Source of the DNA: Opisthocomus hoazin
Taxonomy: Eukaryota > Chordata > Aves > Opisthocomiformes > Opisthocomidae
Length of the DNA stretch: 64,000 nt
Assembly: GCF_030867145.1 (NCBI RefSeq)
Contig: NC_134439.1
Coordinates: 5,679,379 to 5,743,378 of the forward strand
Direction: 5' to 3'
The notes beneath the pieces were generated by a model that saw only the letters and a list, made by a program, of their open reading frames with translations, was not told the origin of the DNA and made no database searches. Shown here piece after piece: positions 31,983-61,125 of this stretch (position 1 is the stretch's first letter; every line of letters starts with the position of its first letter). The translations under genes were made by a program, and so were the position numbers.

Positions 31983-32331
31983 GGGTGATAAATATCTTCA
32001 CAAATATCTGCAGGGTGGGGGGCAGGAGGACGGGGCCCAGACTCTTTCCAGTGGTGCCCAGCGACAGGACAAGGGGCAACGGGCACAAACTGAAGCAGAG
32101 GAAGCTCCAGCTGAACCCGAGGAAGAACTTCTTCCCTCTGAGGGTGACGGAGCCCCGGCCCAGGCTGCCCAGGGAGGCTGTGGAGTCTCCTTCTCTGGAG
32201 ATATTCCAGCCCCGCCTGGCCGCGGTGCTGTGCAGCCTGCTCTGGGTGACCCTGCTTGGGCAGGGGGTTGGGCTGGGGGACCCCCAGAGGGCCCTGCCAA
32301 CCCCTGCCATGCTGCGATTCTGTGATTCTGT
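31983..32331 (+). mobile_element. CR1 3'-end fragment
   Basis: About 350 bp. It begins in the ATAAATATCT...GCAGGGTGGG segment and continues through the CR1 words for [16 protein letters not shown] and SPSLEIFQPRL, ending in ATTCTGTGATTCTGTGA. The fragment is divergent but clear. Confidence 0.95.
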
Positions 32332-35177
32332 GAGAGCCGCGGCCCAGCGCTGCTCCCGACCCCGGGAGCTGCCACGGCAGCGTTGGAGCCGGCGGCTGAG
32401 CCGCTGCCTCCGCACGGCGCTGAGCGCGGGCCTGGCCGAGAGGAAGCGTGCCGTGCCTCTGCGGGTGCCGCAGCCTCGCTCGCGAGAAGGAACCGCAGCT
32501 CGCAGGGGCAGGAAATCATTCATTCCACCACTAGAAACTAAAATTGCTCCTTTTTTTCTGGCCACCCCCCCCTAAAGATTTATTTTTGCTGAAAGTGGTA
32601 CCTCGCTGTTGAAAATCTCAACGAGAGGGAGCGGGGATTCGCCGAGACCTGGAGGAGCCGGCGGCACAAACCGGGGCGCAGAGAAAGTACAGACAGCTCC
32701 TGGCACCTCGTTATGAAAACCAAACGGGTGACGAGCCTGGGTTCAGCTGCTGCGGGGCCGCGCGGTGCGGCAGAGCCCCGAGGAGAGGAGGGGAGCAAGG
32801 CAGCAGCTGGAGCCACGCGGGGGGTCCGGGCGGCTGCCACCCTCCCCTCCCAACGCCTTGGTGGGCTGCGAAGCCCCCCGGGACGCACAGACGGTGTCGG
32901 GACGCGGGACTGGGGAAATTGTCCTCGTTCTTGCAAGCGAGCTGACGGCGGCGGTGCCGGTGGGGTGCTGGGGGGGAGGTCCTGGGTGCCCCGCAATGAG
33001 GGGGGGGCTGCAGCTGTGGCCCCGGGGTTCGGCGTGGGTTGGGTGGGGAGTCCCCCTGCGCGATCTGCAGCCAGGCTGGACGCGAGGAAGACTCAGCCTG
33101 GCTGTGCAGAGACCTCACCGGAGCAAAAACCCCTTCTCCTCCTGCCTCGCTGCTGCTCTTCATGCCCCGGCGCAGCTCGTGGCCACGGGTGCAGAGCCGT
33201 GGCCGGGCGGGCAGCGAGGTCAGGGGCAGGATAAACCTATTCCTGGCGCGGAGCTGGCTGCTGCGGGAGGCAGGCGGAGGGGATTGTCTCCTCTGAGCTT
33301 TAATTCCTGGCCCCGATGGTTTCACCGGTCGCTGGGTGCCCTCCCGGCGCGTGCCCGGTGTTGGGGGCAGCGAGGGGGCTCGGCGGCCGCAGCGGCCACG
33401 GCGAAGGGGTCCGGGTGCCTTCTGCGGCTGCTGGTCCGCCCGGGAGATATTGTTGGGTGACAGATGCTGCTGTCAGCAAGAACCCAGAAAGAAAGAAAGG
33501 AAGAAAGGAAGAGCCTCTGCCGAGAAAGCCGGGGGGAAGCCGCCTCCTCTGCCGTGTCCTGACCAAACCCGGTTATCCCGCAGCTCCAGAGCGGGGAGGG
33601 CCCGGGGACAAATGGACGGGGTGGGAGCCAGGAGCTGTAATTAGCCCAGAGTCTCTGAAGCCACCAACCGCTGTCAATACACCATTTTAATTAGGAAAAG
33701 AATGGAAAAAAGGGGAAAAAAAGAAAAAGAAAGATCCCAAGAGAGGTTTTTCTTTCCTTCTCTCTTTCGCCAGAGTTTTTGCTGTTCCTCCCAAGAGTGG
33801 GAGCAGCCGGAGGGCACCGGCTAATCCTGCCTCGCAGGTCTGGGCCGGCGGCTTAGGGCAGGAATCTCTGGTATTCGGGAGCATGGGGACAACGCTGCAA
33901 AGTGGCTTCTGGGGCCTCTTGCTCCGCAGGCTGCTCCCGGGGGGGGGGTTGGGAGGCGTTTCGCATCGCTTCCCCCTCTCGCGATGCGTGCGTGCGGGTC
34001 TGCCCGTCGCCCTCCTGCCCCGACGCGTGCCTGGGACGAGCTGCACGAGGACGGAGGCAAACGTGGCCGAGCCCCTGCCCGGAGCTGCCGGGGACAGCTC
34101 AGCTTTGAGCGGGTGCTGAGCACGTCCCGCTTCTGCCGATGCTCCGGTGCCTCCAGATCCCAGCCCTGCTCCCATTCTCCCATGGGACAAATCCCCTGTT
34201 GCAGGGGGAAGGTGACACGTGGGCTGGGGGCATCTCCAGAGGCCACCGCTGCTGGGGCGAGCTGGCAGGGGTGCTCCCAGGCCGTGCTCCCCGGCAGCCC
34301 CCCACGGCGAGGATGTGGCCTCAGGGGGCTGCCAGAGCCCCGAAACCGCTGCCCACGGTGGCGGAACCGGCCGAGATGCCATCACAGGGCAGCTCTGCAG
34401 CCGGGAAAGCCGGACGGGCTGGGAAAATCCAGCCCCACAAGCCCCAAGCTGTGGGAAAGCGCCGAGGCCGTGGGGCGCTGGGGCCGGTGACTCAGCACCG
34501 GCTGCTCCGGGACCGGCTCCGCGGCCACGGGGCTTCAGCTTTCCAGAGGGGAAACCGGCTCCGGTTTTCCTGCCAGGGGTGCAAGCAGGGAGAATCCCCC
34601 CCTCTCCTATTTTTGAGCCCCCGCGAGCATCCCGACGGAGTTTGGGAGCCGCTGCCGGGATGCAGAGGCAATCCCCCCACCCACGGGTGCCCAGCACCCC
34701 CCGTGCCCCCCGGCACAGCCCCGCGGGGCCGCTCCCGGCTCGCCCCGCTCCCGCCGGCACAGATAACGGCGTGGGCCGGGATCAACGGTCTCGGGCGCAG
34801 CGGAGCCGTCACTACACATTAACCAGCCGTCCGGTGGAGCAACGCCGCTCCCTCGTCGCCAAGACCAGCGCTCCCCAGAGCAAACTGGGAGCAAACTGGC
34901 AGCGTGGCCAGGCTGTGGGAGCGTGGCCTGGAGCCTCCTGACGAGCCCCCCGCTCCGACGGGGCTGCCCCGGGGGTCCGCACCCCAACGCTGCGTTTGCC
35001 TTCGGGGCTGCGAGACGGCCCGAGGCCTCACCCTGCGGCTGCAGGTGGGTGCTGAGCACCCACGGGGGTCCTGGAGCTGGAATTCCGAGGGGAGGGGGTT
35101 TGGGATAAGCGTGGGTTGTTTTGGGGCATCAGCGCTGCGCCCCGGCACTGGCCTGCAGGACCCTCGGGCAGGAGCCT

Positions 35178-43147: not shown

Positions 43148-46100
43148 CTACTCGTGGTCCCAGGGGCGGATGTTGGGTCTGGTTTCGCTCACAGCCTTGC
43201 CTCCATCTCGAGGGCTTGCGCTGGCTCTGCCCTGCCCGTGGAGGGTCGGACCCACGCTCTCCACCTCCCACGGACACACTTCGGAGGTTTTCCTTGGGTC
43301 TGCGCTGGTCTTGTCAGGTGCTGGTGGACCCTCTTCTGCTTCCCAGGGACAAACCTCAGCTACACTCACGCCTGGGCTGGGGCTGCTGCCCGCTGCGGGA
43401 GCTGTGCTTGCTCCCTGACGCAGCGGCTCTGCCCCGGGCCCCTGCAGGGGCTGGATACCTGGCAGGATGCGGCACAGGGGCTTGTGCTCGGCCTTGCCGT
43501 CAGATCTGCCCTTGGATTTTTTCAGCAGAGATGTTGGAGGCACGGTGCTGGCTCCTGCCACCGGCTCTGACATTCCCATCCCTGTGGGGGCTGCTCTGTC
43601 AGCTCCCTGCGGGCACACGCCTGGTTCGCAGCTTTTCTTCTCCAAGCTGGTGGGCTCTGCTGCTTCCCACGGGCAAATGTCAGGTTTCCTGCTGTCGGTG
43701 CTGTCGGACTTCTTGCGCAGCTCTTTCCCCATTGCGGTGTTCAGGGAGGGCTCCTCTGTGACCAGGGTCTCCCAAGGGCAGATGGCCTCGCGCTTGCTGC
43801 TCCTCTTCTCCGGTGCTGTGGAGGCACCCGCTTTCTTCAGCGGGATGCTCGCCTCACCCAGGGCTGCTCCCTTCTCCGGCAGAGCTGCAGCCACCTCCCA
43901 GGGGCAGATTTCTGCTTTATCAGTGGGTTGGAGCTCTGGGGCCTCCCAAGGACAGACCTCAGCCTTCAGGCTCTCCACACTCTGGGATTTCTTTGACGGC
44001 GACTGGGGCAGCGCTGGGCTCCCAGTGCGGGGTATTTCGGGGGGCTGCTCCATGCCCAGGCTCTCCCAGGGACAGATGGACTCACGGTCTCTGCCTCCTC
44101 TCTCCTGCTTTGCAGACATGCTGTCTCCAATGTCTTTGCAGAGACCCTGAGCTGTCGAAGGGCTTTTGCTCACTGTGGAGAGTCCATCTTTGCCCTCTCT
44201 TGATTCATCTTGGCTTGATGGAGGAGCAGCCACCTCCCAGGGGCAGATTTCTGCTTTATCAGTGGGTTGGAGCTCCTGAGCCTCCCATGGACAGACCTCA
44301 GCCTTCAGGCTCTCCACACTCTGGGATTTCTTTGAAGGTGATTTGGGCAGTGCTGGACTCCCAGTGCAGGGTTCTTCTGGTGGGTGTTCTGTGTCCGTGC
44401 TTTCCCAGGGACAGATAGACTCACGGTCTCTGCCTCCTCTCTCCTTCTTTGCAGACACGCCGTCTCCAATCTCTTTGCAGAGACCCTGACCTGTGGAAAG
44501 GATTTTGCTCACTGTGGAGAGTCCATCTTTGTCCTCTCTTGATTTCTCTTGGCTTGATGGAGGAGCAGCCACCTCCCAGGGGCAGATTTCTGCTTTATCA
44601 GTGGGTTGGAGCTCCTGAGCCTCCCAAGGACAGACCTCAGCCTTCAGGCTCTCTACACTCTGGGATTTCTTTGAAGGTGATTTGGGCAGTGCTGGACTCC
44701 CAGTGCAGGGTTCTTCTGGTGGGTGTTCTGTGTCCATGCTCTCCCAGGGACAGATGGACTCACAGTCTCTGCCTGCTCTCTCCTTCTTTGCAGACGTGCT
44801 GTCTCCAATGTCTTTGCAGAGACCCTGAGCTGTGGAAAGGATTTTGCTCACTGTGGAGAGTCCATCTTTGTCCTCTCTTGATTTCTCTTGGCTTGATGGA
44901 GGAGCAGCCACCTCCCAGGGGCAGATTTCTGCTTTATCAGTGGGTTGGAGCTCCTGAGCCTCCCAAGGACAGACCTCAGCCTTCAGGCTCTCCACGCTCT
45001 GGGATTTCTTTGAAGGTGACTTGGGCGCTGCTGGGCTCCTGGCACGGGGTTTCTCTGGGGGCTGCTCCGTGCCCAGGCTCTCCCAGGGACAGACGGCCTC
45101 TCGCTCGCTGCTGCCCTTCTCCAGGGATCTCCCCGGGCTGGCTAACGCTGCCTGGCGCGTGATGCGCTTGTCCCCCTTCGAAGCCCCCCCTGGACCCTGT
45201 TTTGCCTTTGGTTGATCAGAGGGAGCTGCAGCCACCTCCCAAGGGCAGATTGCTGCTTTATCCAGGGGTTGGAGCTCCCACGGACAGACCTCAGCCTTCA
45301 GGCTCTCCACACTCTGGGATTTCTGTGACAGTGACTGGGGCAGCGCTGGGCTCCTGGCACGGGCTTTTGCTGGGGGCTGCTCCGTGTCCGTGCTCTCCCA
45401 AGGACAGATGGACTCACGGTCTCGGCTTCCTTTCTCTTCCTTTGCAGACATGGTGTCTCCAATGTCTTTGCAGAGACCTCGACCTGTGGAAGGGCTTTTT
45501 CTCACTGTAGACAGAGCATCCTTGTTCTCTCTTAATTTTTCTTTGTTTGATGTTGGAGCAGCCACCTCCCAGGGGCAGATTTCTGCTTTATCAGTGGGTT
45601 GGAGCTCTGGGGCCTCCCAAGGACAGACCTCAGCCTTCAGGCTCTCCACACTCTGGGATGTCCTCGAAAATGCTTTGGGCAGCGCTGGGCTCCCGGCATG
45701 GGATTTTGCTGGAGGCTGCTCCGTGTCTGTGCTCTCCCAGGGACAGATGGACTCACGGTCTCTGCTTCCTCTCTCCTTCTTTGCAGACGCGCTGTCTCCA
45801 ATCTCTTTGCGGAGACCCTGACCTGTAGAAAGGTTTTTGCTCACTGTGGAGAGTCCATGTTTGTCCTCTCTTGATTTCTCTTGGCTTGATGGAGGAGCAG
45901 CCACCTCCCAGGGGCAGATTTCTGCTTTCTCAGTGGGTTGGAGCTCCTGAGCCTCCCATGGACAGACCTCAGCCTTCAGGCTCTCCACACTCTGGGATTT
46001 CTTTGAAGGTGATTTGGGCAGTGCTGGGCTCCCAGTGCAGGGTTTTTCCAGTGGGTGTTCTGTGTCCGTGCTCTCCCAGGGACAGATGGACTCACGGTCT

Positions 46101-49100
46101 CTGCTTCCTCTCTCCTGCTTTGCAGATATGGTGTCTCCAATGTCTTTGCGGAGACCTTGACCTGTGGAAGGGCTTTTGCTCATTATGGAGAGTCCATCCT
46201 TGTCTTCTCTTGATTTTTCTTGGCCTGATGTTGGAGCAGCCACCTCCCAGGGGCAGATTTCTGCTTTATCAGTGGGTTGGAGCTCCTGAGCCTCCCAAGG
46301 ACAGACCTCAGCCTTCAGGCTCTCCACACTCTGGGATTTCTTTGACAGCGACTGGGGCAGCGCTGGGCTCCCTGTGCGGGGTTTTTCTGGGGGCTGCTCC
46401 ATGCCCAGGGTCTCCCAGGGACAGATAGACTCACGGTCTCTGCCTCCTCTCTCCTTCTTTGCAGACACGCCGTCTCCAATCTCTTTGCAGAGACCCTGAC
46501 CTGTGGAAAGGATTTTGCTCACTGTGGAGAGTCCATCTTTGTCCTCTCTTGATTTCTCTTGGCTTGATGGAGGAGCAGCCACCTCCCAGGGGCAGATTTC
46601 TGCTTTATCAGTGGGCTGGAGCTCTGGGGCCTCCCATGGACAGACCTCAGCCTTCAGGCTCTCCACGCTCTGGGATTTCTTTGAAGGTGATTTGGGCAGT
46701 GCTGGGCTCCTGGCACGGGGTTTCTCTGGGGGCTGCTCCGTGCCCAGGCTCTCCCAGGGACAGACGGCCTCTCGCTCGCTGCTGCCCTTCTCCAGGGATC
46801 TCCCCGGGCTGGCTAACGCTGCCTGGCGCGTGATGCGCTTGTCCCCCCTCAAAGCCCCCCCCGGACTCTGCTTTGCCTTTGGTTGATCGGAGGGAGCTGC
46901 AGCCACCTCCCAAGGGCAGATTGCTGCTTTATCCAGGGGTTCGAGCTCCCACGGACAGACCTCAGCCTTCAGGCTCTCTACGCTCTGGGATTTCTTTGAA
47001 GGTGATTTGGGCAGTGCTGGGCTCCTGGCACGGGCTTTTGCTGGGGGCTGCTCCGTGTCCGTGCTCTCCCAAGGACAGATGGACTCACAGTCTCTGCTTC
47101 CTTTCTCTTCCTTTGCAGACAGGGTGTCTCCAATGTCTTTGCAGAGACCTTGACCTGTGGAAGGGCTTTTTCTCACTGTAGACAGAGCATCCTTGTCCTC
47201 TCTTAATTTTTCTTTGTTTGATGTTGGAGCAGCCACCTCCCAGGGGCAGATTTCTGCTTTATCAGTGGGTTGGAGCTCTGGGGCCTCCCAAGGACAGACC
47301 TCAGCCTTCAGGCTCTCCACACTCTGGGATGTCCTCGAAAATGCTTTGGGCAGCGCTGGGCTCCCGGCATGGGATTTTGCTGGAGGCTGCTCCGTGTCTG
47401 TGCTCTCCCAGGGACAGATGGACTCACGGTCTCTGCTTCCTCTCTCCTTCTTTGCAGATGCGCTGTCTCCAATCTCTTTGCGGAGACCCTGACGTGTGGA
47501 AAGGATTTTGCTTACGGTGGAGAGTCCATGTTTGTCCTCTCTTGATTCATCTTGGCTTGATGGAGGAGCAGCCACCTCCCAGGGGCAGATTTCTGCTTTA
47601 TCAGTGGGCTGGAGCTCCTGAGCCTCCCAAGGACAGACCTCAGCCTTCAGGCTCTCCACGCTCTGGGATTTCTTTGAAGGTGATTTGGGCAGTGCTGGGC
47701 TCCCAGTGCAGGGTTTTTCCAGTGGGTGTTCTATGTCCGTGCTCTCCCAGGGACAGATGGACTCACAGTCTCTGCTTCCTTTCTCTTCCTTTGCAGACAC
47801 GATGTCTCCAATGTCTTTGCGGAGACCTTGACCTGTGGAAGGGCTTTTTCTCACTATGGGGAGTCCATCCTTGTCTTCTCTTGATTTCTCTTGGCTTGAT
47901 GTTGGAGCAGCCACCTCCCAGGGGCAGATTTCTGCTTTATCAGTGGGCTGGAGCTCTTGAGCCTCCCATGGACAGACCTCAGCCTTCAGGCTCTCCACGC
48001 TCTGGGATTTCTTTGAAGGTGATTTGGGTAGTGCTGGGCTCCTGGCACGGGCTTTTGCTGGAGGCTGCTCCATGTCCGTGCTCTCCCAAGGACAGATGGA
48101 CTCATGGTCTTGGCTTCCTTTCTCTTCCTTTGCAGACAGGGTGTCTCCAAGGTCTTTGCGGAGACCTTGACCTGCGGAAGGGCTTTTGCTCACTGTGGAG
48201 AGTCCGTCCTTGTCTTCTCTTGATTTTTCTTGGCTCGATGTTGGAGCAGCCACCTCCCAGGGGCAGATTTCTGCTTTATCAGTGGGTTGGAGCTCCTGAG
48301 CCTCCCAAGGACAGACCTCAGCCTTCAGGCTCTCCACACTCTGGGATTTCTTTGAAGGCAACTTGGGCAGTGCTGAGCTCCCTGTGTGTGGTTTTTCTGG
48401 GGGCTGCTCTGTGCCCAGGCTCTCCCAAGGACAGACCTCCTCCTTTATGCTCTCCACACTCTTGAGTTTCTTGGACTCTGCTTTTGAGGACTCCAGGCTT
48501 TTCCTAATGAGCTTTGCAAAGATTCTGGTGTCCCTGCACTCTGGCTGACGGCCTCTCTTCTCTGCCAGCTTTGTTTTGATATCTCCAAGTCCTCTGGATC
48601 CAGGTTTGTTTTCCCCTTTCGAAGTCCCACGCACGTCCTGACTCAGTGTCTCTTTCCCTGTTGGAGCTGCAGGCTCTTCCCAAGGGCAGATTTCTGTTTT
48701 AGGAAGCGGCTCATCCTCCACTTGCCATGGACAGATGTCGGCCTTTTTGCTATCGATGCTTCCTCCTTGCTTAGATGACGTTTTGGGCAGAGCTGGGTGT
48801 TTTGCCGCGAGCCCCGTGCTGGGCTGCTCCGCACCTTCCCTAGGGCTGGGGGATCCTTGCTGGCCGCTCCCCTCGTCCGCAGCCGGTGCCGGCTCTCCTG
48901 TGCCCCTCGGGGCTGCTCCCTGCGGGGAAGTCCGGTTTTTCTCTTGGGAAATTTCACCATCATCTATTTTTCCTGCATCAGATGAGGCCGTTCCCCTTTC
49001 CCAAGGGCAAACTTCTGCATCGCTGTCAGCTCCAACTGCTTCCCAGGGACAAACTGAAGCCCGGGCGCTCGTCGGGATCCTCGAGGTCACTTCTGGCAGC

Positions 49101-51742
49101 TCAGAGCTCCTGGGAGCAGGTTTTGGTGGGGGTTCCTCGCTGCTGGCACTGCCCCAGTGCCGGCCGGCCGCTTGCAGGCTGCTCCCGCTCTCCTGCGCTC
49201 TCAGCAAACCCGGGGATTTTGGCCCGATGCTCCTGACCCCCTTGGCCAGCCGCCTCCTCTCGCCCTCCTGCCTCTCTGGCTGCGCCTGAGCCCCGCATGC
49301 GTCCCAGGGGCAGATTTCTGCTCTGACCGTCCTTCCCTGTTCCCCGGTCTCCCACGGGCAGACCTCAGCCCTCCTGCCCTCCGCGCTGCCCGCCGTCGGC
49401 AGCTCTGGGGTTTTGGCTGGCAGTTTCTCTGGCTCTTCCCCGGGCTGGCCGGGATGCCTCTCGCTGCCGTCCTTCCCCAGGGCTCTGCCTGGCCCCCCGC
49501 CCTCCTCCCAGGGGCAGATTTCTATTTTAATGCTGGAATCTGCCCGGGTTTCCCCAGGACAGAGCTCTGCCTGCCTGCCCGCTGCGCTGCCGGCTTTCCC
49601 CGCTGCAGCTGGGGATACCTCTGCGCTCCGGCTCCTTGCCGGGACCCTCTCGCTGCCCTGGCTCCCGCCGGGACCCAGGGGTTCGGGCTGGCTGCCCCCC
49701 TTCTCCAGCACCTTGGCTGGGCTCTCCCAGCCCAGTGGGACCTCGGTGTCCTCCCGGGAAGCCATGGCCTCCTGGCGCAGCAAGGCTCCTCTTGCTGCTG
49801 GGACGCCCGGGGCTCCCCGGGGACAAACCTCAGCCCCCGGCTCCTCAGCAGCCGCTCTCCGCACGCCGGCGGTGGACGGCTGGGAGCTGCCTGCGATGGG
49901 TTCTGCACGTGGTGTCTCCATCTCCGCATGGTCCTGGGGTTGGATGGTCCTGCTGTCCCCCTCGAGCCCTTTGGCCGGCCCGGCCACCCCCTCCTTGGGT
50001 GTGATCAGCCTCACGATGGCCGCAGAAGCATGGTTCTCCGGCTCAGCCCCTCGCCGAGGATGTACGTGTGCTTTCCCGCTGCCGGCCGCCGCTGGGGTTT
50101 CATGGGGATGTTCATCACCTTGGTGGCCATCACTAGGTGGGATCTCGTGCACCCCCAAGGGTGGCCCTGGGCCCCTGCCAGCATCCCCGTCCTCCCGGGG
50201 AGCACTGGGCTCCTCTGCCATTTTCTCGCCGTCGCCTGTCGCCGGGGCTGGGCTGTGCCCGTCTCCTTCTGCCCCGTCCCCGCCGTGCCCCCAGCCTGCG
50301 GCTGCCCACGCGGTGCCGGCGTTGTTGTTCTGCTGGCAGGGGACTGTCTCCCCGTGCCCCGGCCGGGCGGTGGGCTCGCTGCCGGGCCGCTGCCGCCTCC
50401 ACTCAGGGCTTTTGCTGGAGGTGTCTCGGCCGATCCCACCGAGGGACACGGCTGCCATCTCTGCCAGGCCGGGCCTCTCCCTCCGGCTGCCCCTCTTCCG
50501 GAGGCTCCCCTCGCCCTCCCTTTTGCCCTTCAGGACGCTTTTCCCCCTGGAGCGGTTGAAGGCTTTGATGGCGAGTCCCAGGCTCCGGAGGGACGTCTTC
50601 TGGGAGGGCGGCTTGAGGCCGGAGGGGGTGGCCGCTGCGTCACCGGGGGTCCCCGAGTCTGCCGCTTCGGTGGCTTTTTGCTTCCGACTCAGGATCTCGT
50701 CCTGGACCAGCTCCCAGGGACAGACCTGTGCGGGGATGGAGGCTGCGGGCAGCAGCCGACCCTTCCCCGCCGGCGAGGACGTGCGCCCCGGACCTTCCTC
50801 CATGGTCCCCTCCGGTGTCCCCTCCTCTGCCGGGGGGTCCGTGGGTGGTTCCGAGGGCTCTGGGCTGGCCCCGGCGGGGGCTCGCTGCCCCAGGCTCTGG
50901 CAGCGGACGGGGGGCGGCGGCGGGGTCCTCCTCACCACCCGCACCCGCCCCGGGAGCCGGGAGCTGTCGACGCTGACGCTCTTGATGGGCGCGTAGGTGA
51001 CGTGTTTCTGCACCCTGCCATCGCCCGGGGGGGACGCGTCCTCCTGGGAGCACCCCTCGGCGGGGCTGGAGCCGGCTGGCCGGAGGCCATCGGCTGCACC
51101 GGGGGGTCCCTGGCCCGTGGGGCACCCCGAGGCCGGGGCAGATGGGTGCTGGTTGGCAAGCCACCCCTCTCGAGCGGCTCGGCTGGCAGCGAGCAGGGCC
51201 TCATCCCGTGCCCCGGCAACGACGCTGAGCGACTTGTGCAAGGGGGCTGCGTGGGGCAGGGGGGGCTGCCCGTGCCCCGCCAGGTCGTGGGCGCTGGCCG
51301 ACTTGCACACGAGCGGGGCGGCATCGAGGGACTCGCAGTCAGATTGCTCCGAGGCCGTTGCCACCGTCATCTTCCTCCCCAGCACGGGCTCCCCGAGGGG
51401 GTTGGGGGTGGGCGAGCCTCCCCGGGGCTCCCGTGCGGGACCCTCGGTGCTGCGGGACTTGCGCAGGGCCGCGGCGCGACGCCGGGAGCCGTCACCCCGC
51501 GTCCGCAGGCTGGCATCGGCGAGCCGCTTGGCCGAGGGGCCGCGGCGTGCCGGGGTGCCCAGCCGCTCCCCAGCACCGCTGCTGCGGCGTGCTGCGGCCT
51601 CGGGCAGCTCGGCGAGGCGGCGGGCGATGGAGCGGCCCAGGCTGCGGCGGGAGCTGCGCTTCTTGGGGAGGTGGGGGTTGTTGGCTGCCATCCTCCGCGT
51701 CTTCTGCACCTCCAGCTGCGCGTAGAGCTTCTTCAGCTCCTC
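43148..51742 (-). CDS. GPR179: GPR179 giant last coding exon, cytoplasmic tail with CPWE array
   Basis: A single uninterrupted exon of 8,595 bp (2,864 codons plus TAG) preceded by a CGCGCAG acceptor. It opens with the conserved EELKKLYAQLE coiled-coil-like segment and NNPHLPKKRSSRRSLGRS, followed by a low-complexity, Pro/Ser/Glu-rich region with scattered CPWE motifs. The dense array spans about 43.89-48.45 kb, and the exon ends NIRPWDHE. Keeping a frame open this long across 14 repeat units points to selection on the protein. CPWE motifs are the known family hallmark and are reported to recruit RGS-Gbeta5 complexes. The frame stays open upstream to 52,000 but that part is intron. Confidence 0.96.
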   Translation of the reverse strand, partial: EELKKLYAQLEVQKTRRMAANNPHLPKKRSSRRSLGRSIARRLAELPEAAARRSSGAGERLGTPARRGPSAKRLADASLRTRGDGSRRRAAALRKSRSTEGPAREPRGGSPTPNPLGEPVLGRKMTVATASEQSDCESLDAAPLVCKSASAHDLAGHGQPPLPHAAPLHKSLSVVAGARDEALLAASRAAREGWLANQHPSAPASGCPTGQGPPGAADGLRPAGSSPAEGCSQEDASPPGDGRVQKHVTYAPIKSVSVDSSRLPGRVRVVRRTPPPPPVRCQSLGQRAPAGASPEPSEPPTDPPAEEGTPEGTMEEGPGRTSSPAGKGRLLPAASIPAQVCPWELVQDEILSRKQKATEAADSGTPGDAAATPSGLKPPSQKTSLRSLGLAIKAFNRSRGKSVLKGKREGEGSLRKRGSRRERPGLAEMAAVSLGGIGRDTSSKSPEWRRQRPGSEPTARPGHGETVPCQQNNNAGTAWAAAGWGHGGDGAEGDGHSPAPATGDGEKMAEEPSAPREDGDAGRGPGPPLGVHEIPPSDGHQGDEHPHETPAAAGSGKAHVHPRRGAEPENHASAAIVRLITPKEGVAGPAKGLEGDSRTIQPQDHAEMETPRAEPIAGSSQPSTAGVRRAAAEEPGAEVCPRGAPGVPAARGALLRQEAMASREDTEVPLGWESPAKVLEKGGSQPEPLGPGGSQGSERVPARSRSAEVSPAAAGKAGSAAGRQAELCPGETRADSSIKIEICPWEEGGGPGRALGKDGSERHPGQPGEEPEKLPAKTPELPTAGSAEGRRAEVCPWETGEQGRTVRAEICPWDACGAQAQPERQEGERRRLAKGVRSIGPKSPGLLRAQESGSSLQAAGRHWGSASSEEPPPKPAPRSSELPEVTSRIPTSARASVCPWEAVGADSDAEVCPWERGTASSDAGKIDDGEISQEKNRTSPQGAAPRGTGEPAPAADEGSGQQGSPSPREGAEQPSTGLAAKHPALPKTSSKQGGSIDSKKADICPWQVEDEPLPKTEICPWEEPAAPTGKETLSQDVRGTSKGENKPGSRGLGDIKTKLAEKRGRQPECRDTRIFAKLIRKSLESSKAESKKLKSVESIKEEVCPWESLGTEQPPEKPHTGSSALPKLPSKKSQSVESLKAEVCPWEAQELQPTDKAEICPWEVAAPTSSQEKSREDKDGLSTVSKSPSAGQGLRKDLGDTLSAKEEKGSQDHESICPWESTDMEQPPAKARARSPALPKSPSKKSQSVESLKAEVCPWEAQELQPTDKAEICPWEVAAPTSSQEKSREDKDGLPIVRKSPSTGQGLRKDIGDIVSAKEEKGSRDCESICPWESTDIEHPLEKPCTGSPALPKSPSKKSQSVESLKAEVCPWEAQELQPTDKAEICPWEVAAPPSSQDESREDKHGLSTVSKILSTRQGLRKEIGDSASAKKERGSRDRESICPWESTDTEQPPAKSHAGSPALPKAFSRTSQSVESLKAEVCPWEAPELQPTDKAEICPWEVAAPTSNKEKLREDKDALSTVRKSPSTGQGLCKDIGDTLSAKEEKGSRDCESICPWESTDTEQPPAKARARSPALPKSPSKKSQSVESLKAEVCPWELEPLDKAAICPWEVAAAPSDQPKAKQSPGGALRGDKRITRQAALASPGRSLEKGSSEREAVCPWESLGTEQPPEKPRARSPALPKSPSKKSQSVESLKAEVCPWEAPELQPTDKAEICPWEVAAPPSSQEKSREDKDGLSTVSKILSTGQGLCKEIGDGVSAKKERGGRDRESICPWETLGMEQPPEKPRTGSPALPQSLSKKSQSVESLKAEVCPWEAQELQPTDKAEICPWEVAAPTSGQEKSREDKDGLSIMSKSPSTGQGLRKDIGDTISAKQERGSRDRESICPWESTDTEHPLEKPCTGSPALPKSPSKKSQSVESLKAEVCPWEAQELQPTEKAEICPWEVAAPPSSQEKSREDKHGLSTVSKNLSTGQGLRKEIGDSASAKKERGSRDRESICPWESTDTEQPPAKSHAGSPALPKAFSRTSQSVESLKAEVCPWEAPELQPTDKAEICPWEVAAPTSNKEKLRENKDALSTVRKSPSTGRGLCKDIGDTMSAKEEKGSRDRESICPWESTDTEQPPAKARARSPALPQSLSQKSQSVESLKAEVCPWELQPLDKAAICPWEVAAAPSDQPKAKQGPGGASKGDKRITRQAALASPGRSLEKGSSEREAVCPWESLGTEQPPEKPRARSPAAPKSPSKKSQSVESLKAEVCPWEAQELQPTDKAEICPWEVAAPPSSQEKSREDKDGLSTVSKILSTAQGLCKDIGDSTSAKKERAGRDCESICPWESMDTEHPPEEPCTGSPALPKSPSKKSQSVESLKAEVCPWEAQELQPTDKAEICPWEVAAPPSSQEKSREDKDGLSTVSKILSTGQGLCKEIGDGVSAKKERGGRDRESICPWESTDTEHPPEEPCTGSPALPKSPSKKSQSVESLKAEVCPWEAQELQPTDKAEICPWEVAAPPSSQDESREGKDGLSTVSKSPSTAQGLCKDIGDSMSAKQERGGRDRESICPWESLGMEQPPEIPRTGSPALPQSPSKKSQSVESLKAEVCPWEAPELQPTDKAEICPWEVAAALPEKGAALGEASIPLKKAGASTAPEKRSSKREAICPWETLVTEEPSLNTAMGKELRKKSDSTDSRKPDICPWEAAEPTSLEKKSCEPGVCPQGADRAAPTGMGMSEPVAGASTVPPTSLLKKSKGRSDGKAEHKPLCRILPGIQPLQGPGAEPLRQGASTAPAAGSSPSPGVSVAEVCPWEAEEGPPAPDKTSADPRKTSEVCPWEVESVGPTLHGQGRASASPRDGGKAVSETRPNIRPWDHE

Positions 51743-54700
51743 CTGCGCGCGGCCGCGGCGGAGAGGGGAGAGAGGAGAGCACGTACGATGGCACCGCACG
51801 GGGGACGTGCCCCCCAAACCCCCTGCCTTGGCCCCTACGGCCACGCTGTCCCCGTGTCCCCAAGCTCCCAGCTGCCCGTCCCTCCCGCCCAGGGACGCAG
51901 CAGCTTTTCCCACGCGTGGCCGGGGGGGGGGGGGTTCACCCCGCACCCCCTTCTCCCCCCCCCCTCTGCTTTGTATCAGGAGAAAGATTGCGAAAGGCAC
52001 CTCTTACTCTGCGCGGGGCTGCATAGCTAGCGTCAAAAGAAGGTCCTGAGTGTGGCACCCACCCGAATGTCATCGGGGTCGAGACTGTGCTCGCTCCAGG
52101 CGGACGCGATGCTGCTGTTCAGGCACGAGCCCGAGCGCCGCATGTCCAGCTCGTCCTCGTACACCTCCGCCGCAATCTCCTCCCGCAGCGGCGAGCCGGC
52201 GTGCAGGAACTGGGGGAGGGGAGCGATGGGTGAGCTCACCGAGGGGTCCCCAAAACGCCGGGGAACCCCAGCCCCGCCGCCCCGAGCCCCTGGGCCGAGC
52301 GGTACCTTCGGGATGAAGAGCAGGGCCAGGGTCATGGTGATGGTGCCGTGGGTGTGAGCGAAGAAGAGCAGCAGGGTCCAGTCGGGATGCAGCGAGGGGA
52401 CCATGATGAACCTGGAAGGGGCGAGGAGGGCAGCGCCGGGTCCCGCCGAGGCGTCCGCAGCCCCCTCCCCATCTCCGGACCCCCCAGCCTCCTCCAAGCC
52501 CAGGGTCCCACGCAGGGAACCGCTGGCTCCGGAGATTCCCTGCCGGTTCCTCTGCATTGCCGGGGCCGGGAATGTCGGCTCCCAGCCCCGTCACGGCCCC
52601 GTGTCCTACCTGACCACGTGGAAGGCGGCCGAGACCATGAGCTCGTTGTGGAGCGCGATGCCCATGTAGCGGGGCTCGTGGAAGGCGGAGGGCACGGCGC
52701 GTGTGGCGTAGCACAGGGAGCTGCCCCACAGCAGGAACAGCATTTCGGCTGCGGGAGAGAGCGGCGGAGCGACGCTGAGCATCCAGCCCCGTCACCCTGC
52801 TGCCGTCGGTGGGTTTTCCTGCGTGGCACCGATGGGTGCTGAGCTGCGGGGTGGGTGCTGCTGCCCGCCAGGACCTCCCTGAACATCCAGCCCAGCGTGT
52901 TCACCGCGGCTGCCGCCGGCACGTGCCGTGGCTGGGGCCGGGTCCGGTGCAGAGCATCCTCCGGCACAGCTGTCCCGAAGGCCACCAGGACACACTGCCT
53001 GCGCCCGGTGATCCACGCTGCGCCAGGGTGGGTCCTAGGGACGCTCACAGGAGGAGGCAGGAGGCAGCTCGGGCACCCCAGCCCTGTTTGCAGGCTCCAG
53101 GAGGTTAAATGGGCGATGAAATGAAAACCCCGCGTGCTGCATTGATGGGAGGGGGTCCTGGGGCTGTGGGGACCCCCCGGGACACCGCGGGGGCTGGTCT
53201 CACCGGTCACCATCATGTAGTCCCAGCGGTCGTGGCCGCAGATGGAGAAGTGGAGCCCGCGGGCGGTCTGGGTGCGGATCACCAGCGGGATGTTCCTGTC
53301 GACGTTCTCCAGCATCCCGATGGTCCAGGCCGCCAGGAACCACAGCACCAGGAGCAGGATCAGCCCCAGCATCTTCAGCACCCGCCCGCTCGACACGTAG
53401 GGCGACCGCTGGGCCGTGCGGGACAGGAACACCTTCAGCACCCTGCGAGGCGTGGAGGGGTGAGCCCCCAGCCCGTCCCCGCCGCGGGGGTCCCGAGCAC
53501 CCAGCCCCCCCGGACCCGGCTACCTGTACAGCTTGAGGGTGATGGTGCCGTAGACGATGGCGAAGCCCAGCATGCGCACCCAGCGCAGGACGATGCAGCG
53601 GAAGATGCTCGGCTTGAAGTACAGGATGAACACCTAGGGCGAGGGGAGAGGGGGGTCGGTGGGCGGCATGGGGCCGGATCCCACCTGCCGGGGGGGCAAC
53701 AGATGCCGGAGACTCGGAAACCAGCGGCTGTCGGGCCAGTCCCGCTGCCGCCCATCCCTCTCGGCTCTCCAGCACCCGCCGCAGCTCTTGGGGAAGGGAG
53801 AGGGGATTTGGGCGGTGATTAATTCCCGTGGCCAGCGGGAGAAAAGGGATTTGGCTTCCCGAGCAGGTTTGTACCGCAGCTGCCAGGGGCTGTGCCAGCA
53901 AAATTAACAATGAGCTGGAGCTGTGCCCGTGCCCTGCGTGGGGCCAGCTCGACGCCCTTGCCCGGCGGGCAGCTGGCCTGGGCTTAAACCCCAGCCCAGA
54001 GGTCTTCGGCGCCGGGGCGGGCTGGATACTCACGGGGAAGTAGAGGAGCAGGGACCCGAAGAGGATGGTCTCCAGGAGGACGACTCCCGACGCCCGGATC
54101 CTCTGCGGGGACAGAGGCGTGAGGGTGCAGCCAGGAGCCTCGCCCGGTGCCGGAGGGGATGGACCCAGGGCACAGAGATCCCCCAGGCGTGCCAAGGCGT
54201 CTGGGGGCTGCAACTTTATAAATGCTTATAAATATCTGCAGGGTGGGGGTCAGGAGGACGGGGCCAGACTCTTTCCAGTGATGCCCAGCGACAGGACAAG
54301 GGGCAACGGGCACAAACTGGAGCAGAGGAAGCTCCAGCTGAGCATGAGGAAGAACTTCTTCCCTCTGAGGGTGCCGGAGCCCTGGCCCAGGCTGCCCAGG
54401 GAGGCTGTGGAGTCTCCTTCTCTGGAGATATTCCAGCCCCGCCTGGACGCGGTGCTGTGCAGCCTGCTCTGGGTGACCCTGCTTGGGCAGGCGGTTGGGC
54501 TGGGTGACCCACAGAGGGCCCTTCCACCCCCCACCATGCTGGGATTCTGTGATTCTGTGATCTCCTTCCCGCTGCTGTGACCTCCCCCCGTGAGAGCCCC
54601 CCGAGGCCGTGGGGTTTGGGGGTGGGAGGACCTGGGGACGCCTTGCCTTGCTCCGTCGGAAGTGGTAGGAGACGAGCATGCTGAGGAAGATGGCCAGCAT

Positions 54701-57691
54701 GCAGCAGGCCTGGCAGGAGAGGACGGCCGCCCGCAGAGCCCGGTCCTCCTGGATGAGGCAGGGCGCGTCGTCCTCGCAGGCGGCACATCCCCGGCGGCAG
54801 GGCCGGCATGCCAGCCGGGACCCCTCGTCTGCCCCCGCCGCGCTCCCCGCCGTGCCTGGGGACGGAGCGATGACCGGGTGACATCAGCCTCGGTGGCACT
54901 TACCAGAGCATGGGCTGGGGCTTCCCAAAGCCCCCCAGCCCCGGACCCCACCGCTGCAGCCGTGTGCTGCGGGGTGAAACGGGGACCCCGGGGCTGGGCA
55001 GAGCACCCACCTGCCCAGGCATCGCTGGCCGCTCCGCCGGCGCTGTAAAACCCCGGCTTGCACCGGCACTGGTACCTCCCGAGGACGAAGCCGTGGCTCT
55101 CCTGGGGGACACACTGCAGGAGACAGGCTGAGACGCACGGGACGGCAAGGGTTCATCCTGCATCCCCCCCCCTGCCCCCATACCAGGGGCTCTGGTGCAC
55201 CCCAGCTCCCGGGTACCCAACCCCACACCAGGAGGAATCAGTGCTGGAATTAAAAGCCAAAGCCTGGCCCCCAAATCCCTCCCTAAAACCTAAATGGACA
55301 CCTAATGCAGCAGAGCGCACTAATCCTGCCCGGCCGTGACGGCAGTGGCAGGCAGGGCCCTGCTGCCCTAATCCCCCCTGGCCGCATCCTGCCCGCAGCG
55401 GGCGCGCTGCCCGCATCTCTGGGTGTTGTTGTTGTCAGGACGGATGCCCGGCAGCAGAGCCCGTCGCTCCGGAGGGCATCGCCCGCGGGCGCTGGCGGGA
55501 AGGAGAAGTCGGTGACGACTTTCCCACTCGGGGACAGATTTTTCCCTTTGGGGTGGGACCCTGAGCTGGGGGGGCTGCGGGGTTTGCCCCGGCCGGGGAC
55601 GCTGCCAGGCGTGCTGAGCCCAGAATCGCGTTTGGGCATCAGCGGAGGGGAGCGGGGGCTGCCGATCGGGGTGCTTCGCCCGGAGCCCGGCCGTCCCCGC
55701 GGTGCCCGGGTCACACGCTGGCGCTGGCAGCGGGGACGGCAGATTTGCACGATAAACCCCTGGGCTGCGGCACAGGGAGCAGCTGAGCGAAGCAGATGGA
55801 TCGGCCGGGAGAGGATAAAGCTCAGCGCGGAGGGAGGGACACGCGGCGGGGACAGCCTGGCCAGGGGGACGGGAACGGGTGGGCACGGGGGACCCCCAGC
55901 CCTGCCGGGCGAGGGGATGCGGTGCCGGTGGCTGATACCTGGGTGCTGTTGAGGTCGCAGCGGTGCGTGTCTGCGAACCAGCCCGGCCCGCTGGCGCACT
56001 GGTCGATGGCCACGTCCCGCAGCTCGACGTCCACCCGCACGACGCCCCTGCGCAGGGGGACGGGGTCAGCCCCGGGCCCACCCCTGGCCCCCCACCCAAG
56101 CTTGGCCGCGCCCCGGGGCTGCCCCTGGGACCCGCAGCAGGGCAGGACGCGGCCACGGGGGTGGTGGGTGCTGGTGCGGGGACTGGTGGGGTGACGCGAG
56201 GTGTCAGCGGCGTCCCCGGACCCCCGGCCAGGGATGTCCCCCCCCCTCAGAGCCGTGTCCGGGGTGGGGGCAGCAGCTCCTGGCTGTGATTTGTGCCCCT
56301 CAAGAGGGGCTTTGACGCGACCCGTGGGGAACCAGGAGCTGATGGGTGGCCCCTGCGTGCCGTTCCCCACACCGACCCCCCACCCTGGGTGCTCGGTGAG
56401 GGACAGGGCTTCACCCTTGGAAGCGGGGACATGTCCCCCCCCCGGGACCAAACCCAGCTGCCCCCTTCCCTCCCCACCGCCTCCCACCACGGCTCCTCGT
56501 GCGGGGGCTGCTGGGGTGCAGGAGGGACCCACCAGCCCTGGAACACCCCAGGAGAGACCCCAGCCCGGCTCTCCCACCCCCAACGCAGCCGTGGTGGGGG
56601 GCTCTGGGGGTGGCAGCCCGGGGACAACCGAGGGGGCACGGGAGGCACCTCCATGCCTGCAGACGTGCAAATACCCACGCACACGCGTGTGCACATGCAC
56701 AGGGACACAGGCAGGGGCTGGCACACACCTTGCAGCCCACCACCTGCGCCCGGGGTGATGCTTCCAGCTGCCCCCCCCCCAGCATGCACACGGGGCACCC
56801 CCCAGCCCCTTCACCACCCCCCCCCCAGCCCCTCCAGGTACCACTTACTTGAATTCGGGGCTGAGGTCCGGCTTGAGCCCGTAGAAAGCGGAGGAGAGCG
56901 TGACTGCCCAGGTGGGCAGGAACCTGCCGTCCCGGCACTCGAGGAACGGCGGGGACCACCGGACGTGGGCCGGTTCCCCCACGTAGCCGTCACCCCGCTG
57001 CCATTTGGGGGTCTCCATGCTGCGCAGGTCATTGCTGAGCAGGCGCTTGCGGAGGAGGGGGCTGCGCTGGGACTTGAGGGCGTTGAACCATTCGTGGTCC
57101 CAGCTGAGGTTGCCGAGGTCGGGGACGGCGGCGGAGAGGTCCTGCAGCAGGATCTCGCCGTCCCCCTTGGTGGCCTGCAGCACCAGCCGGGGCTTGGCGG
57201 CCAGCGGGTGGGCGTCCAGGGCGAGCACCGCCCGCCGCACCCACGGGTGCCCCTCGGCCAGGCTGCGGACCAGCGCCTGGTACCACTCCACGTCCTCGGC
57301 CACGCTGGCCTCGCGGATGTCGTTGGTCTGGAAGAGCATGTTGAGGAAGTTGGCGGCGTGGGCCAGCGCCTCGGGGGCGGCACGCAGGGCGGCTCGCAGC
57401 GCCGGGGGGGGACCGCGACCCGCTGCCCCCGCCGCGACGCCCCGGCTGCAGTTGGCCCGGGCCAGCCGCTGCGCATCGCCCGTCTGCAGGAACGCCATCG
57501 CCGCCGCCGAGCCCTCGGGGTCCCCCGACGCTCCCGGCTCCGGCGTGGGTGCCCAGGAGGATGACGGAGCCGGGGACCATCCCGCCGGCCGAGGGGGGTC
57601 CCTCCTGAGGGTGCTGGCCCCCCGGGAGGACGGTGCCACGGACCAGCGTTGCGTGGAAGCACCAGAGCAGCGGCCACCGCCAAGGCCCCAT
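43148..57691 (-). CDS. GPR179: Orphan class C receptor GPR179 with greatly expanded CPWE repeat tail
   Basis: Class C-like orphan receptor on dendritic tips of retinal ON-bipolar cells. In mammals it anchors RGS7/RGS11-Gbeta5 complexes near mGluR6 and TRPM1 and binds pikachurin; loss causes congenital stationary night blindness. Coding exons: 56849-57691, 55939-56047, 55011-55113, 54647-54855, 54034-54102, 53524-53633, 53204-53442, 52610-52748, 52306-52411, 52063-52209, 43148-51742. From the Cache-like ectodomain on, they join in one frame to TAG. Order: signal peptide, Cache-like domain, cysteine-rich EGF-like segment (CASGPGW to CRCKPGFY), seven membrane segments across exons 4-9, then a cytoplasmic tail starting EELKKLYAQLEVQKTRRM and holding about 54 CPW(E/D/Q) motifs. 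Predicted length is about 3,540-3,555 aa, much longer than the human protein (about 2,370). Oddities: a frame break in exon 1, one GC donor (exon 4), a tandem repeat in exon 11, and a CR1 copy in intron 4. Confidence 0.97.
43890..48450 (-). repeat. Coding tandem array: 14 units of about 339 bp in a 1,671-bp higher-order repeat
   Basis: The landmark GGCAGATT(T)CTGCTTTATC occurs at 43903, 44242, 44581, 44920, 45244, 45574, 45913, 46252, 46591, 46915, 47245, 47584, 47923 and 48262. Spacings are 339, 339, 339, 324, 330, repeated twice, then 339 three times. All are multiples of three. Each unit holds three motifs: (E)S-I-CPWES, KAEVCPWEA and KAEICPWEVAA. The sum of five units is 1,671 bp, and a distinctive variant unit (QAALASPGRSLEKGSSERE) occurs twice, exactly one period apart (for example c45121 and c46792). 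Confidence 0.96.
52063..52209 (-). CDS. GPR179: GPR179 exon 10
   Basis: Encodes FLHAGSPLREEIAAEVYEDE to HSLDPDDIR, the conserved start of the cytoplasmic tail. Confidence 0.94.
52306..52411 (-). CDS. GPR179: GPR179 exon 9 (TM6-TM7)
   Basis: Encodes FIMVPSLHPDWTLLLFF to TLALLFIPK. Confidence 0.94.
52610..52748 (-). CDS. GPR179: GPR179 exon 8 (TM5-TM6)
   Basis: Encodes AEMLFLLWGSSLCYATR, FHEPRYMGIALHNEL and SAAFHVV plus two bases. Confidence 0.94.
53204..53442 (-). CDS. GPR179: GPR179 exon 7 (TM4)
   Basis: Encodes VLKVFLSRTAQRS, membrane segment LGLILLLVLWFLAAW, and CGHDRWDYMMVT plus one base. Confidence 0.94.
53524..53633 (-). CDS. GPR179: GPR179 exon 6 (TM3)
   Basis: Encodes VFILYFKPSIFRC to ITLKLY plus two bases. 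Donor GTAGCC. Confidence 0.94.
54034..54102 (-). CDS. GPR179: GPR179 exon 5 (TM2)
   Basis: Encodes RIRASGVVLLETILFG to LLYFP. Acceptor CCGCAG, donor GTGAGT. Confidence 0.94.
54212..54561 (+). mobile_element. CR1 3'-end fragment in GPR179 intron 4
   Basis: About 350 bp from TTTATAAATGCTTATAAATA through the NFFPLRV region to ATTCTGTGATTCTGTGA. It is antisense to GPR179 and lies wholly inside the GC-AG intron. Confidence 0.95.
54647..54855 (-). CDS. GPR179: GPR179 exon 4 (TM1), GC splice donor
   Basis: Encodes a cysteine-rich segment (CRPCRRGCAACEDDAPC) and membrane segment 1 (ACCMLAIFLSMLVSY), ending at FRRSK. The donor reads AAG|GCAAGG, a GC rather than GT donor with otherwise good consensus. 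The join to exon 5 is exactly in frame and matches the family. Confidence 0.92.
55011..55113 (-). CDS. GPR179: GPR179 exon 3 (EGF-like)
   Basis: Encodes CVPQESHGFVLGRYQC, then CKPGFYSAGG to DAWA plus one base. These are the cysteines of an EGF-like module. Confidence 0.94.
55939..56047 (-). CDS. GPR179: GPR179 exon 2
   Basis: Encodes GVVRVDVELRDVAIDQC to DLNSTQ. Donor GTATCA. Confidence 0.94.
56849..57691 (-). CDS. GPR179: GPR179 exon 1: signal peptide and Cache-like ectodomain (frame break near 5' end)
   Basis: The ATG at 57691 opens a convincing signal peptide (MGPWRWPLLWCFHATLVRG). The ectodomain (MAFLQTGDAQRLARANCS, FLNMLFQTNDIRE, VEWYQALVRSLAEG, YGLKPDLSPEF) is read one base out of phase with it. 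One extra base between about 57,540 and 57,640 would explain this; the six-base C run at 57618-57623 and G run at 57593-57598 are suspects. Donor GTAAGT follows base 56849. Confidence 0.85.
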
Positions 57692-59435
57692 GGCGGGGGG
57701 CTCAGCGCAGCCCCCCAGCCCCCCGCCGCCCCACCGGCCGGGCAGGGGGGGGCATGGCGGGCAGGGTGGCCGGTGCCGGAGCCCCCCGCTCTGCTCCGCG
57801 GGGGCCCGACTCCCGCTCCGTCACCCGCTTTTCTCCCTCGGCGATGCCGGAGCAGACGTCACCGGCTCCAAAACAGGTTCATCTGCTGGTGATGCCCGCC
57901 CGGAGCCCCCCCCCCCCCTCCCCGCCCGGCCCCCCCGCCTCGGGCGGTTTGCGCTGCCAGGGACCCCCGCCCTCCGGCCCCAGCCTCCCCCGGGGACCCC
58001 CGCACCCCGGGCCCCTCGGGCTGGCCGTGATGCAAGCGCATCCCGGTGGGAAGCCATGGCAACGGGGCCGGGAATTTTCCTCCCGGCGTCCCCCTCCCCT
58101 CTGCAGCCGAGGGGGGGGGGGAAAGGGGGGGGAAGGTCGCCCGCTGGGTCCCCATATGGTCCCGGGCTTCAATCCCGCAGCGCCCGGCCCCCCCCCGGGC
58201 AGGGGATGGAAATGGAGGGGGGGGGGGCACCCAGGCAGGGCGTCCCCGTGGGGGGGCAGGTGGGGAGTGCGGTGTGGGGGTGGGCGCTGGCAAGGTCCCC
58301 ACGGCAGGGACTGAAGCCCCCCCCCCGCCCCAAGCTGAGGGAGGATGTGCGGGGTCCCGGGCAGCACTGCCCTGGTTGCGGAGGGGAAACTGAGGCACGG
58401 GACGGGGCTCAACCCCCCGCCCCCCGGCAGCCCCCGGCCTGGACAGACCGGGCCCAGCCCCCTCCTCCGGCGGGGCACGACGCTGTGCCAGAGCCGTGCC
58501 AGAGCCGTGCCAGAGCTGTGCCAGAGCCGTGCCAGAGGTGTGCAAGGGCCGTGCAAGAGGTGTGCCAGAACTGCACCAGAACCATGCCAAAACTGTACCA
58601 GAACCGTGCCAGAGCCGTGCCAGAGACACCCCAGAACCATGGTAGAGCCATGCCAGAACCATGCTAGAGCGGTACCAGAACTGCGCCACAGCCGTGCCAA
58701 AGCTGTGCCACAGCCGGGCAGGAGCTGTGCCAGAGCCATGCCAGAGCTGTGCCGGAACAGTGCCAGCGATGTGGCAGAGCCACACCAGAACCGTGCCAGA
58801 ACCGTGCTAGAGCGGTGCCAGATCCGTGCCAGTGCTGTGCCAGAGCCATGCCAGAACCATGCCAGAACCGTGCCAGAACCATGCCAGCGCAATGCCAGAG
58901 CTGTGCCAGTTCTGTGCCAGAGCCGTGTTAAGAGCCGTTGCAGCGCTGTGCCAGAGCCATGCCAGAGCCATGACAGTGCCGTGCCAGAGCTGTGCCAGAG
59001 CCGTGCCAGATCCGTGCTAGAGGTGCCCCAGCCGTGCCAGAGCCGCGCAGGCCTCGCCGTTCGCCTGTTCCGGCCCTGCCTCAGTTTCCCCTCCCACAGC
59101 CCCGGTCCCGGGCCGGGGGGGGGGGGGGGCTGTCACCGCTGCTCCTCACGGCCCCCCCCTCAACTGCCCCCTGGGGGGCGGGGCCTCGCTCAGCCAGGGG
59201 GCGGGTCTTGGGGCGGGGCCTCAGCGCCGGGCGTGGCTACACCCAGCGGGGAGGCGTGGCTAGCTCCCAGGGGCGGAGCCGGCGGCGGAAGTGGGGGGGC
59301 GTGGCGCCGCGCGGCCGTCGCCGCGGAGGAGGCGGGAGGGAGGGGGGGAGCGGTGGCGGCGGTGGCCGCGGCCGTGTGCGGGCGGCCCGGCCCGGTCCCG
59401 CCCCGCTCCCGCTCGGCCATGCGGCGGCCGTAGCC
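57692..59435. other. Divergent intergenic region between GPR179 and SOCS7
   Basis: About 1.7 kb, very GC-rich with many G/C homopolymers, containing the 15-bp array. It must hold both promoters and 5' untranslated regions. No TATA box is evident. Confidence 0.65.
58484..59050. repeat. 15-bp minisatellite, about 38 copies
   Basis: Imperfect tandem array of GTGCCAGAGCCGTGCCAGAACC-like sequence, unit AGAGCCGTGCCAGAG and variants, with occasional indels. Because the period is five codons, several frames stay open on both strands (ARAVPEPCQ-like forward, WHGSGTALAR-like reverse). This is an artefact of the repeat. Confidence 0.95.
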
Positions 59436-60340: not shown

Positions 60341-60710
60341 TTGGGCGGGGGGGGGTTCCCCTTTGGGCTGGGGGGGCTGAGCTGGGCGGGGGGGGGTTTC
60401 CCCTTTGGGCTGGGGTGGCTGAGCTGGCGGGGGGCCTGCCCCCCAGCCCAGGGGGGGGGATCGGTGGGATGGTTGGGGGGCTGCAGGGAGACCTCGGGGC
60501 TGGTGCCGGCCATGCCGTGACCCCATGGTGCAGGGGGAGAAGGGGTCCCGGTGCCGTGCCGCCTTGCCGGAGGTGGAGGGTGGCTGTGAGGCGCTGGTGC
60601 CATCCCGCAGCCCATCAGCGGGGCCGTCCGTTGGCCCCCAGCTGGGCTCGGGCCTCTCCTGAGCAGCTGCCGAGGCCTCGTCCATCACGCGGGGATGGCG
60701 AGCACCGCTG

Positions 60711-61125
60711 GAGCCCGGGGATGCTGCAGCGAGGAGGAGGAGGAGGAGGATGCTCTGGGCCCTGCATCCGCACAGGGCAGGGCGGGAAACCGCCCGGGAG
60801 CGGGACCAGTGAGGTGCTGGGTGGCTTTGAGGAGCCACTGGAGCCCAGGGATGCTGCAATGAGGAGGAGGAGGATGCTCTGGGCCCTGCATCCACACAGG
60901 GCAGGACAGAAAACTGCCTGGGAGCAGGACCGGTGAGGTGCTGGGTGGCTCGGAGGAGCTGCTGGAGCCCAGGGATGCTGCAGCGAGGAGGAGGAGGAGG
61001 AGGATGCTCTGGGCCCTGCATCCGCACAGGGCAGGACAGAAAACTGCCTGGGAGCAGGACCGGTGAGGTGCTGGGTGGTTTGGAGGAGCCGCTGGAGCCT
61101 GGGGATGCCGCAGCGAGGAAGCAGC
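60711..61125. repeat. 124-130-bp tandem repeat in SOCS7 intron 1, about 4 copies
   Basis: Units start with GAGCCC(A/G)GGGATGCTGCA at 60711, 60841, 60965 and 61095 (last copy partial), spacings 130, 124 and 130. Each contains a GAG/GGA run of variable length followed by GATGCTCTGGGCCCTGCATCC. Length differences lie mostly in the GAG run. Confidence 0.93.

Follow-up and report, generated by a model that had tools for sequence, protein, structure and literature searches.

Variants of GPR179 cause congenital stationary night blindness, and the human receptor is 2,367 amino acids long (PMC13205639); the role of its long tail is little treated in the literature we reached. In the paralogue GPR158, according to the cited passages of a review, two VCPWE motifs control how the receptor interacts with Go and trap the alpha subunit of Go, G-alpha-o (PMC9027133, citing Hajj 2019). 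Here we describe the GPR179 gene of the hoatzin, Opisthocomus hoazin, within a window of 64,000 nucleotides (the whole stretch of DNA analysed; NC_134439.1, positions 5,679,379 to 5,743,378), in which a tandem array of 14 units holds 42 copies of the motif CPWE. The array is a confirmed expansion of the motif in a known gene, intact and under constraint, and makes a striking variant of that gene rather than a new kind of system. No description of it was found among the open-access papers listed, judged by titles and the openings of abstracts.

Structural work gives the second point of comparison. In GPR158, the DHEX domain of RGS7 contacts intracellular loops 2 and 3 (ICL2, ICL3), transmembrane helix 3 (TM3) and the cytoplasmic coiled coil, in GPR158-RGS7-Gbeta5 complexes of 2:1:1 or 2:2:2 formed with a construct that ended at residue 863, and the authors expect RGS7 to bind GPR179 in a similar manner (PMC8611064). 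From brain lysate, GPR158 and RGS7 have been found with activated Go (PMC12796736).

Results

The array lies in the terminal exon of GPR179 on the minus strand, within a frame that is open for 2,951 codons (52003-43148), and it is real, coding and intact. Tandem Repeats Finder detects 13.6 copies of a 339-bp period (43887-48435), which the protein resolves into 11 units of 113 residues, two of 105 and one of 98, with no stop or frame break across the 14. Every unit carries three CPWE motifs, spaced mostly 40, 16 and 57 residues apart; in u5 and u10 the unit alignment shows a gap where the middle motif has its E, but the protein itself reads CPWE (CPWELEP, CPWELQP). Across the terminal exon there are 54 matches to CPW[E/D/Q], 52 of them exact CPWE, and 12 of the 54 lie outside the array (8 before it and 4 after). 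In 1,000 shuffles of the exon's residues, CPWE occurred 0.01 times on average and never more than once. The preliminary description, which had counted by eye about 54 motifs in one open exon and 14 in-frame units of about 113 residues with three motifs each, is borne out by these figures.

Constraint on the array is concentrated in the motifs. Pooled over 91 unit pairs, the ratio of nonsynonymous to synonymous change (dN/dS) is 0.417 overall, 0.043 in the 15 motif columns and 0.471 in the other columns. The C, P and W of the motifs are invariant in all nine of their columns, compared with 37 of 104 columns elsewhere. All 42 tryptophans of the array stand inside CPWE, and its 1,551 residues include only two that are phenylalanine or tyrosine. 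Disorder-promoting residues make up 70% of the composition, and the net charge is -38. AlphaFold2, run on the 14 aligned units, returned a mean predicted local distance difference test score of 58 and a predicted template modelling score of 0.10, with no helix or strand long enough to report. Strong protein-level constraint on the CPWE motifs and the confinement of all tryptophans of a predicted disordered array to those motifs are both new. We read the predicted structure as that of a disordered chain carrying one repeated, putative binding element.

The order of the units records how the array grew. DNA identity between units ranges from 67.6 to 98.5%. It is highest, on average, between units five apart, where the mean over nine pairs is 90.7% against 79-85% at other lags. 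When the order of u1 to u13 was shuffled (u14 left out), the observed lag-five mean was reached at any lag from one to seven in 43 of 20,000 permutations. This five-unit, 1,671-bp higher-order repeat, present in about two and a half copies, is a newly described structure. Summed by hand over u3/u8, u4/u9, u5/u10 and u6/u11, synonymous changes number 21 in 303 sites; at an avian neutral rate of about 2e-9 per site per year, and ignoring gene conversion, the five-unit duplication would be about 15-20 million years old, a figure on which we do not rely. Motif doublets that are older and decayed flank the array on both sides, three stretches before it matching the array doublet in hmmsearch at E 2.3e-8 or better and others more weakly, so the array expands something that was already present.

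By sequence, the gene is the orthologue of GPR179, as had been proposed. The 682 residues of the joined receptor exons align over 681 positions with the human GPR179 structures 8d1b and 8irj (965.3 bits, E ~1e-289), and score lower, at 858.5 bits, against GPR158. This part passes the Pfam cut-offs for 7tm_3 (PF00003; 150.2 bits, cut-off 33.5) and GPR158_179_EC (PF22572; 134.3 bits, cut-off 28.1); in the assembly, GPR158_179_EC matches four exons at two loci, this one and the GPR158 gene (C4). Our 11-exon model, built from genomic sequence, joins in phase across ten introns, of which nine are GT-AG and one is GC-AG, ends at a single stop and encodes 3,491 residues counted from the methionine aligned with human residue 60. 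A full-length protein of about 3,550 residues would exceed the human one (PMC13205639) by about 1,180, close to the excess of some 1,200 suggested at the outset. The ectodomain, the seven-transmembrane region and the start of exon 11 align with human GPR179, and the CPWE motif appears in print for the human protein, in one example, EVCPWEVTE (PMC11291154). Because the array, at 1,551 residues, is longer than the excess, the rest of the protein would be shorter than in human; a single insertion does not account for the difference.

Two observations concern the ends of this model. A signal-peptide-like start (methionine near 57691; 57498-57691, minus strand) lies in a GC-rich stretch and out of frame with the receptor reading from 57498, a mismatch that may reflect an indel in the assembly, a real frameshift or another start. 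In exon 11, Pfam matches to RET_CRD and MRI passed the whole-protein cut-off and were rejected, since no single stretch passes and weak scores add up over the repeated tail.

The GPR158 gene of the same genome (L019, C4) belongs to the same family. It carries CPWE, and the first 183 residues of GPR179 exon 11 align with it at 38% identity, but its terminal frame has 499 codons, two CPWE motifs and no array. That exon scores 214 bits against human GPR158 and 61 bits against GPR179, and its two motifs agree with the two conserved VCPWE motifs described for GPR158 (PMC9027133). GPR179 here also shares the coiled-coil stretch EELKKLYAQLE with the GPR158-RGS7-Gbeta5 complex, although the binding region described there lies outside the CPWE array (PMC8611064).

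A 29-base repeat probe, allowing up to three mismatches, found at least 11 matches in the assembly, all within the array, and a protein search using the open frame up to the end of u1 found at least 14, of which 13 lie in GPR179 and one in GPR158; both searches score the best candidates only, and the counts are lower bounds. Four DHEX matches fall at three loci in the assembly, DHEX being, we assume, the domain of R7-type RGS proteins. Among other collections, the 14-unit alignment gave 96 pattern matches in genome_contigs and 20 in viral_contigs, none confirmed, as expected for a vertebrate gene.

Table 1. Coordinates of GPR179 exons, array units and repeat structure (positions in the window)
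Feature	Position	Strand	Remarks
Exon 1, receptor-frame part	56849..57498	-	first residue aligns with human 60
Exon 2	55939..56047	-	
Exon 3	55011..55113	-	
Exon 4	54647..54855	-	GC donor at 54641-54646, not GT
Exon 5	54034..54102	-	
Exon 6	53524..53633	-	
Exon 7	53204..53442	-	
Exon 8	52610..52748	-	
Exon 9	52306..52411	-	
Exon 10	52063..52209	-	
Exon 11 (terminal)	43148..51742	-	2,864 codons + stop; 52 CPWE; acceptor GCGCAG before GAGGAG
Exon 11 upstream of array	48443..51742	-	GPR158/179-like start EELKKLYAQLE...; 8 CPW[E/D/Q]; older decayed doublet modules
Tandem array, 14 units	43790..48442	-	1,551 aa (amino acids); 42 CPWE
u1	48104..48442	-	113 aa
u2	47765..48103	-	113 aa
u3	47426..47764	-	113 aa; DNA identity to u8 96.2%
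u4	47087..47425	-	113 aa; DNA identity to u9 98.5%
u5	46772..47086	-	105 aa, divergent type; DNA identity to u10 95.2%
u6	46433..46771	-	113 aa; DNA identity to u11 95.6%
u7	46094..46432	-	113 aa
u8	45755..46093	-	113 aa
u9	45416..45754	-	113 aa
u10	45101..45415	-	105 aa, divergent type
u11	44762..45100	-	113 aa
u12	44423..44761	-	113 aa
u13	44084..44422	-	113 aa
u14	43790..44083	-	98 aa, last third divergent
Higher-order repeat	43887..48016	-	45558-48016 matches 43887-46345; offset 1,671 bp; 2,459 bp, 148 mismatches
Exon 11 downstream of array	43148..43789	-	4 CPWE, decayed modules, stop codon

Discussion

We lean, tentatively and with less than even confidence, toward a reading in which tandem and five-unit duplication expanded the GPR179 tail into a 42-motif array that would act as a multivalent tail holding G-alpha-o. 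In ON-bipolar cells the mGluR6 cascade works through Go and, by analogy with the two VCPWE motifs of GPR158, each CPWE would be a putative weak site for G-alpha-o. Complexes of RGS7 or RGS11 with Gbeta5 would occupy the coiled coil and the loops near the membrane, and each receptor dimer would hold one or two of them however many motifs it has. Beside this fixed number of GTPase-activating protein (GAP) complexes, a long tail would keep more G-alpha-o captive locally, and the captive subunits could buffer GTP hydrolysis or feed it, with no extra RGS complexes docked. This natural tail and its 42 near-uniform motifs are a convenient source of constructs for testing the partner of CPWE and for relating motif number to sensitivity and speed. 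On this reading the expected outcome changes: motif number should scale with bound G-alpha-o and not with RGS.

Several points weigh against this proposal. The Go-VCPWE result concerns GPR158 and two motifs, as told by a review (PMC9027133), and binding of G-alpha-o by the GPR179 array motifs is argued from that paralogue. A linker stretch, SQSVESLKAEV, is as invariant as the motifs, and gene conversion can raise the constraint seen between repeats. The closest pair, u4/u9, has a dN/dS of 1.17, from five changes only, and the nine other pairs with individual values lie between 0.20 and 0.68, on few changes. A published TRAF6 consensus is matched by half of the array motifs as well.

The main rival is near-neutral repeat drift, in which a disordered spacer with redundant motifs lengthens as a minisatellite by unequal crossover and the extra copies add little function; we consider this rather unlikely, though it has real points in its favor. 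The five-unit higher-order repeat is a mark of unequal exchange, columns outside the motifs are fairly free to change (dN/dS 0.47), and the same window holds other minisatellites. What such drift does not lead one to expect is 14 units without a stop or frame break, each with three intact CPWE motifs whose dN/dS is 0.04. In a further reading, the motifs would be stickers in a disordered tail that gather the postsynaptic complex into clusters, perhaps by condensation. The motif tryptophans are nearly the sole aromatic residues, their spacing is regular, the chain is acidic, and components of the cascade have been described as a single macromolecular complex (PMC4412108), but clustering by CPWE is something that we infer, and we regard a scaffold of this kind as improbable. 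That the array is an assembly duplication, or that internal splicing removes units from the mRNA, is highly unlikely. The most similar units, u4 and u9, still differ at 1.5% of positions, which argues against an exact duplicate made in assembly, the window contains no ambiguous bases (N), and frame and motifs are kept in 14 of 14 units. In favor of splicing, the array holds 13 donor-like sites scoring 7 of 9, ten of which fall on ten of the 13 internal unit borders, a score within the range of 6 to 8 shown by the gene's own ten modelled donors, and six AG dinucleotides are preceded by 10 pyrimidines in 12 positions. A stricter scan, which gave no splice sites in the array, was discarded as too strict once calibrated on the gene's own sites.

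Two further explanations assign the motifs to other partners. According to a preprint, human GPR179 has a predicted TRAF6 site, EVCPWEVTE, with matching segments in all vertebrate homologues examined (PMC11291154); CPWE and the residues that follow would form putative PxExx[FYWHDE] sites, and the recruited ubiquitin ligase would control receptor turnover. In the array, 21 of 42 motifs fit that consensus, and the whole array holds 23 fits, whereas 1,000 shuffles averaged 3.9 and never exceeded 11, although the shuffles break CPWE itself, which already supplies the P and the E. The third motifs (CPWEVAA) are invariant yet none of the 14 fits, only 3 of the 12 flanking motifs fit, and four of the fits (CPWEAPE) carry a disfavored proline at +4, so TRAF6 fails to explain why all three motifs per unit are retained. 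The preprint's authors judge knowledge too scant to decide (PMC11291154), and it is we who infer the role in turnover. TRAF6 could use some array motifs; as an account of the array we hold its recruitment to be highly unlikely. The first and middle motifs of a unit often fit the consensus and the third never does, and the three motif classes may therefore not share one partner.

The preliminary description had instead considered CPWE motifs as possible docking sites for RGS-Gbeta5, plausible in a lineage with fast, high-acuity vision; in the corresponding model each CPWE would dock RGS7 or RGS11 with Gbeta5, and more motifs would bring more GAP activity and faster vision. In the cited passages, synaptic anchoring of RGS7 and RGS11 requires GPR179 (PMC6203450), and, according to a review, GPR158 depends critically on conserved parts of its C terminus to bind RGS7 and enhance its GAP action (PMC9716020). 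Structures nevertheless place RGS7 on the loops and coiled coil, at one or two per dimer (PMC8611064), and VCPWE is tied to Go (PMC9027133), and for these reasons the premise probably named the wrong partner. A link to fast vision is weak as well: loss of RGS does slow the response (PMC6203450), but in mouse ON-bipolar cells G-protein deactivation does not normally limit the rate (PMC4412108), and extra RGS alone is therefore not expected to speed vision. We consider docking of this kind very unlikely as an explanation of the array, while the tail may still influence RGS7, given the review of GPR158 (PMC9716020).

If captive G-alpha-o is what the motifs provide, a more speculative extension follows. 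Motif number in the GPR179 tail, being set by a mutable minisatellite, could tune how far G protein is buffered at the first visual synapse, like a genetic dial whose setting differs among bird lineages and perhaps among individuals; we put forward this idea as a long shot.

Other features of the window

Antisense to the start of exon 11 lies a 990-residue open frame (49058-52030, plus strand) that matches no Pfam family at E 0.01 and probably just results from GC-rich codon usage. Similar fragments resembling long interspersed nuclear elements, which we take to be CR1, recur at 23872-24618, 31853-32575, 54219-54646 (GPR179 intron 4), 61486-62181 and 62718-63533; a Pfam scan of three of the five (those starting at 23872, 61486 and 62718) gave no match. 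Besides the CPWE array, the window holds an 11-bp minisatellite of 51 copies adjoining GPR179 (58485-59045), a 57-bp repeat in 6.6 copies (30367-30725) and a 130-bp repeat in 3.2 copies (60705-61119).

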